From Dehalobacter sp. DCA (GTDB taxonomy: Bacteria; Bacillota; Desulfitobacteriia; Desulfitobacteriales; Syntrophobotulaceae), in the NCBI RefSeq assembly GCF_000305775.1, contig NC_018866.1:1426001-1490000 (forward strand): DNA of 64,000 nucleotides. The letters run 5' to 3'. Every line of letters begins with the position of its first letter. Position 1 is the first letter of the stretch. The notes under the pieces are model-generated. The model was not told the DNA's origin, did no database searches, and saw nothing but the letters and a program-made list of their open reading frames with translations. The position numbers and the translations under genes are program-made. Shown piece after piece: positions 25,095 through 62,832 of this stretch.

Positions 25095-25973
25095 TTACTC
25101 GATATTCTGAACCTGTTCCCGGATTTTCTCCAATTCACTTTTTCCTTGGACAACAATATGTGAAATCTCCAGATCATTTGCCTTAGACCCAATGGTATTG
25201 ATCTCTCTGTTCATTTCCTGAATCAGAAAATCCAGTTTCCGTCCAATCGGCTCATTGGTTGAAAAGGCTTTGGTAAATTGTTCAAAATGGCTCCCGAGCC
25301 TGACCAGCTCTTCCTCAATAGAAGACCTGTCGGCAAAAATGGCAATTTCGGTAATCAGTCTAGCTTCATCCAGTGAAGTGTCCGCCAGAAGCGCCGCAAG
25401 CCTTTCCCTTAATTTTTCCTGATATTCCGCGACAACCTGCGGCGCTCTTACAGTTACTTGATCAACCATTCCGGAAAGGTCATCTAATTTTTTCAGCAAA
25501 TCCTTGGCCAGTCTCTCCCCTTCAGTCCTACGCATTTGAATTAACTGGTTCAGCGCCTCCTGTAAAGCCATATTGAGATATGGCCACAAGGCTTCGGCAT
25601 CCGTCTCTTCGTTTTCAACACTGAGTACTTCAGGGAGCGAAACCAGACTAAAAAGATCGCTCTTATACGTGGTATTGAGCAAATTTGCCAATTCCTTCAG
25701 AGAATTATCATACGACAGCACTAAATCTTTGTCAACCTTAACTAATCTCTTTTTTTCTTCCGTTTCCTTGATATTTACGTAAATATCAATGCGGCCTCGC
25801 TGGACTTTTTCCTGCACGGCTTTACGAAAACGTTCCTCAATGATATTCAGGTTCCTTGGTAGTTTCACCAGGACTTCCAGGAAGCGATTGTTCACTGACT
25901 TCATTTCTACTGAAATCTGAACTCCAAGTCCCTGAGCTTCCCCTCTGCCAAAACCAGTCATACTGTTTGCCAA
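25095..25973 (-). CDS. yicC: YicC family endoribonuclease
   Basis: A 292-residue protein opening with S-M-T-G-F-G-R-G, the YicC hallmark, with the N-N-R-F-L-E motif near residue 30 and the conserved R-K-L-D-F-L-I-Q-E-M-N-R-E-I-N-T-I-x-S-K end. YicC proteins are RNases; in Bacillus the homologue YloC precedes remA and gmk just as here. The start is probably the TTG at 25973, four codons before M-T-G-F-G. It heads the operon driven by the promoter at 25997-26026. Confidence 0.93.
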   Translation of the reverse strand: MANSMTGFGRGEAQGLGVQISVEMKSVNNRFLEVLVKLPRNLNIIEERFRKAVQEKVQRGRIDIYVNIKETEEKKRLVKVDKDLVLSYDNSLKELANLLNTTYKSDLFSLVSLPEVLSVENEETDAEALWPYLNMALQEALNQLIQMRRTEGERLAKDLLKKLDDLSGMVDQVTVRAPQVVAEYQEKLRERLAALLADTSLDEARLITEIAIFADRSSIEEELVRLGSHFEQFTKAFSTNEPIGRKLDFLIQEMNREINTIGSKANDLEISHIVVQGKSELEKIREQVQNIE

Positions 25974-25996
25974 TTTCCCTCAACTCCTTACGGACA

Positions 25997-26026
25997 ATCA
26001 TACCATTTCTTTGCTCCGAAGGGCAA
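25997..26026 (-). promoter_or_regulatory. promoter of the yicC-remA-gmk-rpoZ-coaBC-metK operon
   Basis: On the minus strand TTGCCC (26021-26026), an 18-base spacer and TATGAT (25997-26002). The yicC TTG start follows 23 bases downstream of the -10. Confidence 0.6.
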
Positions 26027-26102
26027 GAATACCGTCTGCATGCTTTAGTGCTTGAAGTCTTTTCATTTATCATAGCTAAGAGATTGCGGTTGAGAGCTTT
26101 AG

Positions 26103-26150
26103 ACAGTTTGTCCAAGAATCCGCACCGGTGCGGATTCTTGGACAAACTGT
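26103..26150. repeat. 48-bp perfect palindrome without spacer
   Basis: Each half is 24 bases (ACAGTTTGTCC... up to ...CGCACC, then its exact complement), centred between 26126 and 26127. It lies 76 bp upstream of the yicC -35 in the 580-bp gap 25974-26553, which holds no credible gene. RNA from either strand would fold into a near blunt hairpin; DNA could form a cruciform. There is no U tract beside it, so it is not a standard terminator. Confidence 0.9.
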
Positions 26151-26317
26151 TGATAGGAGGTTTTGCACAATTGCCAGCCAATTATATTAAGTCATATATA
26201 GCTTAAAAATTCAGCTTCTCCTATTACAGTCATTATCTTTACTGTTTTCTGTCCATGGACGGACAACTGTCGCGGTGCCATGGATAGCAAGGAGCGACAA
26301 CATGCAGTAAGCAGCAG

Positions 26318-26386
26318 GGTTTTGGCATGTTAGCGAGGGTTTCTGGCTTTAGTCGCGAGAACAGGGGAGCGGTGGATCTGTGCAAG
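26318..26386 (+). repeat. second repeat family, copy A
   Basis: The segment beginning GGTTTTGGCATGTTAGCGAGG, with GCGAGAAC, AGCGG and TCTG-TGCAAG further on, matches in order a segment on the opposite strand at 57289-57362. The 75 bases upstream contain inverted repeats (TGTCGC with GCGACA at 26268-26299). No coding sequence is seen in 26151-26400. The shared pieces suggest a decayed interspersed element or a structured RNA. Confidence 0.5.
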
Positions 26387-26400
26387 ACTGCACTACCCAT

Positions 26401-26435
26401 AAAGAAAAGACGCCAGTTTTTAAAATTGACGTCTT
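26401..26435 (-). terminator. intrinsic terminator of dapF-dapL
   Basis: Arms AAGACG and CGTCTT enclose an AT-rich imperfect stem. On the minus strand the hairpin is followed by TTTTCTTTA, as expected at the end of transcription about 120 bp past the dapL stop. Confidence 0.65.
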
Positions 26436-26553
26436 CGCTTGGGGCTAAGTTGTGATACGTCCCCATAATCAGACTTAATATTATTCGATGGTTGTTGATC
26501 GTTTTGCTCTCTGTTTTTTGTTCTGTGTTCAGCGTTAAAAACGCTCAGGCCTG

Positions 26554-27795
26554 TCAGCTTAACGCGATTTTGGTTCTTATCCTTTCAATCGCCCTTTCAG
26601 TATTCTCTTTGGTATTGAAAGCCGTCAGCCGGAAGAATCCTTCCCCACTCGCACCGAAGCCGGCTCCGGGTGTTCCGATAACATTTGCCTCTTTCATCAG
26701 CTTGTCAAAGAATTCCCAGGACCCCATCTGTCCCGGTGTTTTTAGCCAGATATACGGTGCATTCACACCGCCAAAGACGGTATATCCCGCTTTTTCTAGA
26801 CCAGCCCGGATAATTGCGGCATTATCCATATAATAATCAATGGTTTCTTTGACCTGTTGTTTCCCTGCCTCAGAAAATATGGCAGCAGTGGCAGCCTGGA
26901 TCGGATAAGATACTCCATTGAATTTTGTGGTCTGCCTTCTAAGCCATAATTTATTCAGACTGTGCGCTTCTCCTTTGGAATCATAGACCATGACTTCCTT
27001 TGGAACGATGGTATATGCGCAGCGAGTCCCGGTAAAACCAGCCGTCTTGGAAAAACTCCTGAATTCCACGGCCACTTCGCGCGCACCTTCGATTTCAAAA
27101 ATACTATGGGGAACACCGTCTTCCCGTATGAAAGCTTCGTACGCAGCATCAAATAAGATGATGGCCTTATGATCGCGTGCATAATCGACCCATTTCTTCA
27201 GTTCTTCAGCCGAAAGTGTCGTTCCGGTCGGATTATTCGGATAGCACAGGTAGATCATATCTGCTTTCGTGCCGGGAAGCGCCGGTTTCAGTCCATTTTC
27301 CTGATTACAGGGAAGATAAACGATTCCTTCAAACTGCCCTTTGTCGTTGTTATAAATACCGGTACGTCCAGCCATGACATTGCTGTCCACATAAACCGGA
27401 TAAACCGGGTCTGTAACAGCCAGGATATTGCCAGTTCCAAATATCTCCTGAAAATTGGCGGTGTCCGTCTTGGCCCCGTCACTGATAAACACTTCGTTAA
27501 CTGCCAGGTCGACACCGCGGGGCTTGAAATCGTGCTCAATGATTTTTTCAATCAGGAACTCATATCCCTGTTCTGGGCCATATCCTCTAAAGGTTTTCTG
27601 TTGGCCCATTTCCTCGACAGCCTGATGCATTGCTTCGATGACGGCTGGCGGAAGCGGGCGGGTCACATCACCAATACCCATTTTTATTAAGTCACAGTCC
27701 GGGTTTTCCTGTCTGAATTGCTTTTCCCGGCGGGCTATTTCCGAAAAGAGATAGCTTCCAGGCAGTTTAAGATAATTTTCATTGACAAAAGCCAT
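26554..27795 (-). CDS. dapL: DapL, LL-diaminopimelate aminotransferase
   Basis: A PLP enzyme of 413 residues converting tetrahydrodipicolinate directly to LL-diaminopimelate, bypassing the succinyl/acetyl routes. The opening [16 protein letters not shown] is diagnostic. C-Y-P-N-N-P-T-G-T and the PLP lysine in [14 protein letters not shown] are visible. The ATG at 27795 has AGGAGAG at proper spacing. It follows dapF by 82 bp, so the window encodes the last two steps to meso-diaminopimelate for lysine and peptidoglycan. Confidence 0.97.
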
Positions 27796-60567: not shown

Positions 60568-61434
60568 TCAGGAATGAACTCTAAGCGGTTTCTTGGGGGG
60601 CGGCCACTCTTTAATCGTCTCTGCCATGTATTCAATCAGCCGGTTGGCCTCTTTTCTTTTTTCTTCTTTCAGGTTCGGATCGATATGCGCCAGATTGGTG
60701 AGCGCTGTCGTCAGATCGAAGAAGGTATCGGCAATTGTTTTGCAGCAAGTGTCGCACTTTTCTACATACTTGATATGAGCGTCGGGGTCATATTCGGTTT
60801 TAAGGTTGTGGGTCGGCAGGGCGGGTTGACCGGCAGAAGGGGCCATACCGAAAGAAGGGGCTTCTGCTTTCTCAGGATTCGTTGGCACTGACGCAGCCTT
60901 AGCCTGCTCCTTTTTTAATTCGGAGATGGTGCTGTCGATCGTCTCCAGCCCTTTTTTGAGTACTTGATTCACCTGAAGAGCCTGGTCCTTTTCCTGAAGC
61001 GCCTGTTCCTTCGCCTGATTAGCCTGATCTCTGTCCCTAAGCGCCTGCTGCAGCTCCTGTTTCGTCATACTGCCGACGTTATTGTGCGCGATAAATTCCT
61101 CCCGCTCCTCTTCTGGTAAACCTAGCAGGAGGAGGGCCTGGGTGTAGGTCAAAATCGACACTGGTGTCGATTTTGACCTGTCGGATCCGTCAGAAAATTT
61201 AGGCCCGTATTCCTCATAGAGCTTGATCAGTCTTTCGGCAGTTTTCTGGGAATAACTTACAGACTCTGCCAGCCACTTACCCCATTCCCCGTGTTTGACC
61301 AGATCCTTGGCTTCCAGCAAACGACGGCCGATTTCAATAGCGCTGGCAAGTACTATTTTTTTGGTTTGGCAGGTTATCATATTTATTTCAGCCGCTATGA
61401 CAAGCGGCGTGCGTTCGCCGGTCGAGTTATCCAT
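60568..61434 (-). CDS. DUF3102 domain protein
   Basis: A 288-residue protein. The N-terminal helical domain (about 8-75) contains I-G-R-R-L-L-E-A-K-x-L-V-x-H-G-E-W-x-x-W-L and S-Q-x-T-A-E-R-L-I-K-L-Y-E-E-Y-G, matching DUF3102, which looks like a DNA-binding domain. A segment L-T-Y-T-Q-A-L-L-L-L-G-L-P-E-E-E-R-E-E follows, then a Gln/Ala/Glu coiled coil (about 125-190) and a C-terminal region with C-D-T-C-C. Such proteins are often on mobile or accessory loci; their function is unknown. It interrupts the usual ftsZ-spoIIGA neighbourhood. A 34-bp palindrome lies in the coding sequence. Confidence 0.8.
   Translation of the reverse strand: MDNSTGERTPLVIAAEINMITCQTKKIVLASAIEIGRRLLEAKDLVKHGEWGKWLAESVSYSQKTAERLIKLYEEYGPKFSDGSDRSKSTPVSILTYTQALLLLGLPEEEREEFIAHNNVGSMTKQELQQALRDRDQANQAKEQALQEKDQALQVNQVLKKGLETIDSTISELKKEQAKAASVPTNPEKAEAPSFGMAPSAGQPALPTHNLKTEYDPDAHIKYVEKCDTCCKTIADTFFDLTTALTNLAHIDPNLKEEKRKEANRLIEYMAETIKEWPPPKKPLRVHS
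61146..61179. repeat. 34-bp near-perfect palindrome inside the DUF3102 coding sequence
   Basis: Sixteen-base arms (61146-61161 and 61164-61179; AGGTCAAAATCGACAC and its complement) flank a two-base centre. It encodes the residues around S-K-S-T-P-V-S-I-L, just before the conserved T-Y-T-Q-A-L-L segment, at a spot that seems variable in the family. Confidence 0.9.
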
Positions 61435-61767
61435 CCCGCCCACCCTTTCATTATGAGTCCAACTACAGCATATGCAGATGGGCTTCGGATGGTGAGGGCT
61501 TGGCTTTTATTAAAAGATAGGTGTATGGCCTTACCAGCACTGTTCATGAGAAAGGGAATGTAACGAAAACTTTAGTTTCGATGCGTCCCCTCATATGATC
61601 TTTATGCTGATTCCTTCAAATATTGCAGACTTGGAATAAGCCCAGAGGTTTCAAAATGTTAGCGAGGCTGCGACAGCCCATGAAAAAGTTAAAGACAAAG
61701 CTAAAGACGCCCAAATAAGACGCCTTCAGCATTGAATAGAACCAACTTTTATGCTTAAAAGTTGATG
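61435..61767. other. intergenic region between ftsZ and the DUF3102 gene
   Basis: No gene is supported. It has a short hairpin CGAAAACT/AGTTTCG (about 61564-61580), a TGTTAGCGAGG string (near 61660) shared with the second repeat family, and a CAACTTTT/AAAAGTTG stem (61743-61764) three bases past the ftsZ stop that may act as a weak terminator. Confidence 0.5.
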
Positions 61768-62832
61768 TTATCTTTTATATTTCAGGAAATTCGGGATATC
61801 CACGTGATCCTTGAATGGATTATAGTCTTCCATCTTGGTTATCTCCTGCGGGTTCTTTACTTTTTTGACAAAGCTGGACCGCTGGTCAAAGCCTGTGGCG
61901 ATGACCGTTACCCGGACATCATCTTTTAGGTTTTCATCAATGACTGCACCGAAGATAATGTTGGCCTCCTGATCGGCTGCTTCACCGACAATCTCGGAAG
62001 CTTCGTTGACTTCAAGCAGGGTCAGGCTTGGACCGCCGGTGATATTCAGCAGAACACCCTTCGCACCTTCAATCGAGGTTTCAAGCAGCGGACTCGAAAT
62101 TGCCTTACGGGCGGCGTCGACCGCTCTGTTTTCTCCGGAAGCCTGTCCAATACCCATCAGTGCCGAACCGGTATCGGACATGATGGTCTTGACATCGGCA
62201 AAGTCAAGGTTGATAAGTCCCGGAATAGTGATCAGGTTGGAAATCCCCTGTACGCCTTGCAGCAGTACGTCATCCGCAATGCTGAAGGCTTCCTGGACCG
62301 TCGTATGTTTATCGACAACCTGCAAGAGTCTGTCATTTGGAATGGTAATCAGCGTATCAACCTTTTCCTTCAGTTCAAGGATTCCTCTTTCAGCCTGCAT
62401 GGCTCTTTTGCGTCCCTCGAACGAGAAAGGCCTTGTAACAACGCCGACAGTCAGGGCTCCAATTTCCCTGGCGATCTCGGCAACAACGGGAGCGGCTCCC
62501 GTTCCTGTTCCCCCTCCCATACCGGCGGCAACAAAAACCATATCGGCACCGAGCAGCGCTTTGGCAATCTCGTCACGGCTCTCTTCAGCCGCACTGTGAC
62601 CGATTTCCGGATTAGCTCCTGCACCGAGTCCTTTGGTGAGTTTAATGCCGATTTGTATTTTTTCAGCTGCCCTGGACATTTGAAGCGCCTGAGCATCTGT
62701 ATTCAGCCCGATGAACTCTACTCCTTTAAGACCAACGGAAATCATTCTGTTTACGGCATTGTTTCCGCCGCCGCCCACTCCTATTACCTTGATCCGTGCA
62801 AACTGCATCTCATCACTAATGAATTCGAGCAT
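61768..62832 (-). CDS. ftsZ: cell-division protein FtsZ
   Basis: Tubulin-like GTPase of the Z-ring, 354 residues. The GTP motif G-G-G-T-G-T-G is at 106-112, the first glycine loop [13 protein letters not shown] near 18, and the T7 loop N-L-D-F-A-D-V near 207. The C-terminal tail ends I-P-N-F-L-K-Y-K-R, the peptide that binds FtsA/SepF/ZapA. AGGGG precedes the ATG. No ftsA lies between ftsQ and ftsZ, common in this group. Confidence 0.97.

Follow-up and report, generated by a model that had tools for sequence, protein, structure and literature searches.

What keeps a 48-bp perfect palindrome in a bacterial genome is the question raised by the interval between dapL and yicC in the 64,000-nt stretch of Dehalobacter sp. 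DCA analyzed here (the window). The palindrome, read directly from the sequence at 26103-26150 (no strand is assigned to this or the other palindromes), consists of two 24-nt arms, ACAGTTTGTCCAAGAATCCGCACC and GGTGCGGATTCTTGGACAAACTGT, that are 100% complementary, with a spacer of 0 nt and no mismatch, exactly as the sequence-only reading had described; it matched CM R1 at 57.6 bits (E 1.6e-12). The chance expectation for such a sequence is approximately 1e-10 to 2e-10 per window (64000/4^24). No other perfect palindrome in the window is as long; the runner-up, TTGATATTTACGTAAATATCAA, has 22 bp and lies within yicC (25768-25789). An assembly artefact is an unlikely source of 26103-26150 because many genomes that were assembled independently carry comparable perfect palindromes, with different inner sequences, at loci unrelated to this one.

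The dapL-yicC interval

The palindrome sits between dapL (minus strand, ending at 26554) and yicC (minus strand, starting at 25973), on the upstream side of yicC and about 130 nt from its start. A weak promoter-like site (26026-25997, minus strand) is located between the palindrome and yicC, and the sequence-only reading had likewise placed the palindrome upstream of the promoter of the yicC operon. The link to yicC is one of position, and a functional link was not supported. The palindrome was absent between dapL and yicC in the four congeners compared, in which an interval of approximately 0.13 kb stands in place of the roughly 0.53 kb at 26033-26567 (no strand assigned), and a role as a yicC regulatory element was ruled out on this ground. 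Besides the palindrome, the replaced interval holds two further dispersed repeats, one of which (26253-26298) has approximately 18 copies in the genome, and the other (26299-26450) several further copies, including five at 90% identity. The view that the palindrome is not a normal terminator was right: it lacks a T tract, and no intrinsic terminator (GC-rich hairpin plus T run) was detected within 25900-26600. Likewise, no Rfam family exceeded its gathering score for the palindrome, and only sub-threshold microRNA-type matches to the bare hairpin were obtained; terminators and known RNAs were thus rejected.

A family of symmetric sites

A search for the half-site of 26103-26150, allowing up to three mismatches, retrieved no other copy in the window or in the 3,069,953-bp genome, yet divergent relatives of the half-site are present. 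Related perfect palindromes in the genome share a constant outer arm (TTGTCCnAnA) and differ in their inner bases, always on both arms; the 38-bp family core of the palindrome in the window is TTGTCCAAGAATCCGCACC joined to GGTGCGGATTCTTGGACAA (26108-26145). A relaxed pattern retrieved two further 38-bp palindromes at genome positions 358627 and 706587, with the same outer arm and other inner bases, and a fourth member, a composite palindrome, was located at 2644447; these genome-wide counts cover matches to the patterns used. The composite lies between rodA and minE (L123, at 2644447; L242 and L240) and holds GAATGC/GCATTC and GACAC/GTGTC stems within one TGTCCCAAA stem. One congener has an identical copy; another differs by partial changes to both arms of the second stem.

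In relatives, the core reads TTGTCC-n-A-n-A-W-n-C...., with inner sequences such as GACAGC, GACAAC, GAATGC, and TTACGC that are complemented on the opposite arm. A strict pattern applied to approximately 85,000 species genomes retrieved 30 stretches, mostly from Desulfosporosinus, and a covariance model detected the family in 29 of the 73 genomes of the order. The family is abundant in Desulfosporosinus and in the genus of the window. No match was detected in the phage records searched (INPHARED), and the plasmids searched yielded two, one of which adjoins a PcfJ gene. Perfect TGTCC...GGACA palindromes were also observed on Uhrbacteria and Staskawiczbacteria contigs (L088, L075, and L077), several of them near a gene resembling a PaaX/Cas2-type regulator; these possibly represent an unrelated, convergent system.

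Symmetry was examined in 77 family copies comprising 54 distinct sequences, which are related and in part share cores by descent. Complementarity was 90-100% at every pair, and the inner 12 pairs were 96% complementary versus 64% when arms were shuffled between copies. The two central pairs were Watson-Crick in 95% and 99% of the copies, the second showing three pair types, and mismatches among the 77 copies were not enriched in G-T. About two thirds of the copies were perfect and 26 of 77 imperfect; the one in the window is neither unique nor unstable in kind. Because the center is symmetric where a hairpin loop could not use pairing, the constraint resembles dimer recognition of duplex DNA, and a dimer with two-fold symmetry that reads the duplex fits the data better than an RNA hairpin or a cruciform.

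DUF3102 genes and their predicted product

The palindromes are closely associated with genes encoding DUF3102 proteins (PF11300). DUF3102 genes occur in all 29 palindrome-bearing genomes of the order; of the 44 others, 37 have none and seven have them without a TGTCC-type palindrome (co-occurrence, Fisher p 4e-14; copy-number rho 0.89; the p-values ignore shared ancestry). DUF3102 was the sole gene family enriched among the genes beside 83 palindromes. Furthermore, a one-sided flank common to many palindromes (TTTATAnGAGGnTTGTCAC...CATATnnTGTGAATAAAG) proved to be the promoter region of DUF3102 genes. Among 78 DUF3102 genes, 14 have an upstream palindrome only, 43 an in-gene palindrome only, and one both (p 1.4e-5), an exclusivity that partly reflects the manner in which the loci were gathered. 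Many of the remaining 20 carry a near-palindrome in the linker, and two genes without an upstream or in-gene palindrome (L189 and L228) have the palindrome GGTTTGAAATGC|GCATTTCAAACC 53 nt past the stop codon. Upstream palindromes sit just before the predicted DUF3102 promoter, and in-gene palindromes occupy a fixed place, the linker after residue ~84. The outer arms differ by type, with TGTCC in upstream and solo sites and GGTCA in in-gene sites. The solo palindromes follow the same grammar and are intergenic, in the same genomes as DUF3102 genes. None of 9000 synonymous recodings (45 genes) matched the observed in-gene symmetry, and the in-gene palindromes are encoded with paired codon changes.

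Genomes contain up to 38 DUF3102 genes, and that of the window has roughly nine paralogues. Lone DUF3102 genes adjoin unrelated housekeeping genes. Most prophage DUF3102 genes have no clear palindrome, and some on viral contigs have one. On viral contigs (L254-L280), DUF3102 directly follows a PcfJ gene, overlapping it in several cases, and a small PcfK-like gene sometimes precedes. In one congener, two decaying DUF3102 genes (L235 and L238) have lost much of their sequence, with the in-gene palindrome nearly or fully intact. The half-site in the window, AGAATCCGCACC, is identical to the left arm of the palindrome inside a DUF3102 gene of a congener (L179). An assignment of solo sites to single paralogues within the genus looked suggestive by eye but was not significant, and the matching of solo to in-gene sites was statistically weak (p 0.04 for mean identity and p 0.38 for near-identical pairs). 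The literature searched contained no study of what DUF3102 does, nor any of these palindromes.

The window itself contains a DUF3102 gene of 291 aa (60571-61443, minus strand), which adjoins ftsZ (61771-62832, minus strand) and covers the whole PF11300 profile (196.7 bits, cut-off 24.4; E 2e-58). Its coding sequence holds the palindrome AGGTCAAAATCGACAC(tg)GTGTCGATTTTGACCT (61146-61179), whose symmetry was matched by none of 200 synonymous shuffles and whose core recurs unchanged in the solo site at 706587 in the genome. The core is exactly kept in the orthologue of one congener, and in two others all that is present at the locus beside ftsZ is a remnant of DUF3102 together with a palindrome of the TGTCC type. 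The best match in the window to a leader HMM, a profile of upstream-type DUF3102 leaders, is the promoter/leader-like stretch TCAC...AGCC...CATATGCTGTA of this gene (61464-61495, minus strand; E 0.24), where there is no upstream palindrome. The second-best match on both strands of the window is at 26154-26179 (plus strand), beside the 48-bp palindrome. Its E value of 0.96 is poor by itself, and the assignment as a candidate relic of a DUF3102 promoter/leader thus rests on its exact position by the palindrome, since leaders normally follow upstream-type palindromes in this register, together with flank alignments. No DUF3102 coding sequence was recognized by eye next to 26103-26150.

The AlphaFold model of the DUF3102 protein of the window, built from a 36-sequence alignment, is confident (pLDDT 85.9). 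It has helices at residues 13-84 and 100-120, then an extended coiled coil at 128-184, and ends in a pair of C-terminal helices. Foldseek placed ParB, Spo0J, and Noc at the top, with probabilities of up to 0.89 but E values of 0.4-1.2. VIA-align superposed residues 30-144 on the DNA-binding domains of Noc, Spo0J/ParB, and KorB at Z 4.7-6.1, all below the value of 8 under which a score is suggestive and not proof. ParB/Noc-type proteins again led the list, among them Noc (7nfu, Z 6.1, rmsd 2.6 over 95 aa; 7ol9, Z 5.8; the Noc-NBS complex 6y93, Z 5.7), Spo0J (4umk, with parS, Z 6.0; 1vz0, Z 5.5), KorB (1r71, Z 4.7), and SopB (Z 4.6), and Raf1 was the only unrelated family that scored as high (Z 6.1, rmsd 4.1). 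The ParB CTPase domain and its motifs (GxxRxxA and ENxxR) are absent from the protein, in which the matching domain begins near residue 30. A PDB sequence search returned coiled-coil matches only, and comparison with Pfam matched no transposase or nuclease family. The model is suggestive of a ParB/Noc-like helix-turn-helix domain for DNA binding, plus a coiled coil.

A putative docking site and competing explanations

The explanation that we favor, with some reserve, is that the palindrome is a symmetric duplex site for a putative dimer of DUF3102, a ParB/Noc/KorB-like protein without a CTPase domain. The association with DUF3102 genes and the symmetry of the sites make DUF3102 the candidate binder of the palindromes, which its dimer would recognize as double-stranded DNA. 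Where the site lies within or next to the DUF3102 gene itself, it would probably serve autoregulation. The solo sites would be either orphaned by gene loss or extra docking sites, which DUF3102 probably marks or nucleates on, by analogy with Noc/NBS and ParB/parS. The palindrome at 26103-26150 is probably such an orphaned docking site for a DUF3102-type protein, left with a relic promoter after gene loss, and one of the nine or so paralogues in the genome may still bind it. The sequence-only reading had offered two options, that the palindrome was new or that some protein or mechanism maintained it, and the second is upheld in outline by the family-wide paired changes and the tie to DUF3102 genes; maintenance by a protein is plausible, with DUF3102 as the named candidate.

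Known systems offer partial parallels. The NBS bound by Noc is a perfectly palindromic duplex, GGATATTTCCCGGGAAATATCC (PMC8429893). The palindromes described here resemble the Noc/NBS system of Bacillus in their perfect symmetry and in the superposition of the predicted DUF3102 DNA-binding domain on Noc. On the other hand, DUF3102 lacks the N-terminal CTPase domain, its palindromes span 28-56 bp versus 16 bp for NBS, and a genome holds many paralogues, whose sites often differ in inner sequence and lie inside or next to the respective gene. ParB/Spo0J and parS are similar in predicted fold class and palindromic sites, and one parS of B. subtilis is located inside spo0J; however, the parS sequence is nearly universal, whereas the DUF3102 palindromes vary between paralogues and the protein lacks the CTP-binding motif. 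KorB of plasmid RK2 has a DNA-binding domain similar to the DUF3102 model and regulates genes from palindromic operators, but it has a CTPase domain and its many operators share one sequence. The REP/RAYT system also ties dispersed palindromes to one protein family and its own gene. REPs are imperfect and are paired with HUH nucleases, whereas the palindromes here are mostly perfect and their partner is DUF3102; no Y1 (HUH) transposase partner was found, as DUF3102 alone is enriched beside the palindromes and matched no transposase profile.

A mobile palindromic element of the REP/MITE type, in which the palindrome is the recognition end, DUF3102 the carrier or mobilizer, and the solo sites non-autonomous copies, would account for the dispersed and patchy distribution, the high number of DUF3102 genes in some genomes, and the presence or absence of palindromes between close relatives. 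It would also fit the difference of the core as a block at two orthologous sites whose flanks are conserved, namely 706587 (GACACC versus TGAGGC) and the site beside ftsZ (CGCACC versus TGAGGC). Nevertheless, we consider it unlikely, as terminal repeats and target duplications were not found, the in-gene palindrome is fixed in place within a working gene, and DUF3102 matched no transposase or nuclease family. Clean transposition was rejected, since the presence/absence junctions compared were replaced intervals or internal deletions in decaying DUF3102 copies, with no clean insertion. IS21-like ends were rejected as well: all six genomic matches to the half-site GTGTCGATTTTG fall into facing pairs, at three sites, and the palindromes are therefore not two abutted ends of an insertion sequence resident in the genome.

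Control of DUF3102 mRNA stability or translation by an RNA hairpin is less probable still. The predicted hairpin is strong (z -7.6 and -8.4), transcripts would include the in-gene copies and some of those in leaders, and changes are paired, but the two central pairs, which would form the loop, are as complementary as the stem, the second through three pair types. In addition, upstream sites precede the predicted promoter, and neither an Rfam family at threshold nor a U tract was found. The lowest probability is given to a functionless mutational product in which template switching at a hairpin re-perfects the arms. The imperfect copies could be its intermediates, and at one locus in different Desulfosporosinus (L033 versus L083 and L085) one base has been inserted at mirror positions of both arms. 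However, the unpaired tip would be beyond the reach of such repair, yet the center is symmetric, and it would remain unexplained why the palindromes occupy a fixed place within DUF3102 genes, alternate between upstream and in-gene positions, and co-occur with these genes.

If the palindromes are DUF3102 sites, this would give DUF3102, for which no role was described in the literature searched, its first function, site-specific DNA binding, and would account for a class of long perfect palindromes. More tentatively, and with a distinctly lower likelihood, DUF3102 could form a new CTPase-less branch of ParB-like proteins, with dozens of paralogues that each have their own diverged site in or beside the gene as separate protein-site pairs, and with cores that are block-swapped between loci. 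A protein's own site within its coding sequence, encoded with paired codon changes, would then represent selection at the DNA level that shapes protein sequence, and the many diverged protein-site pairs per genome would provide a testbed for the evolution of ParB-like specificity.
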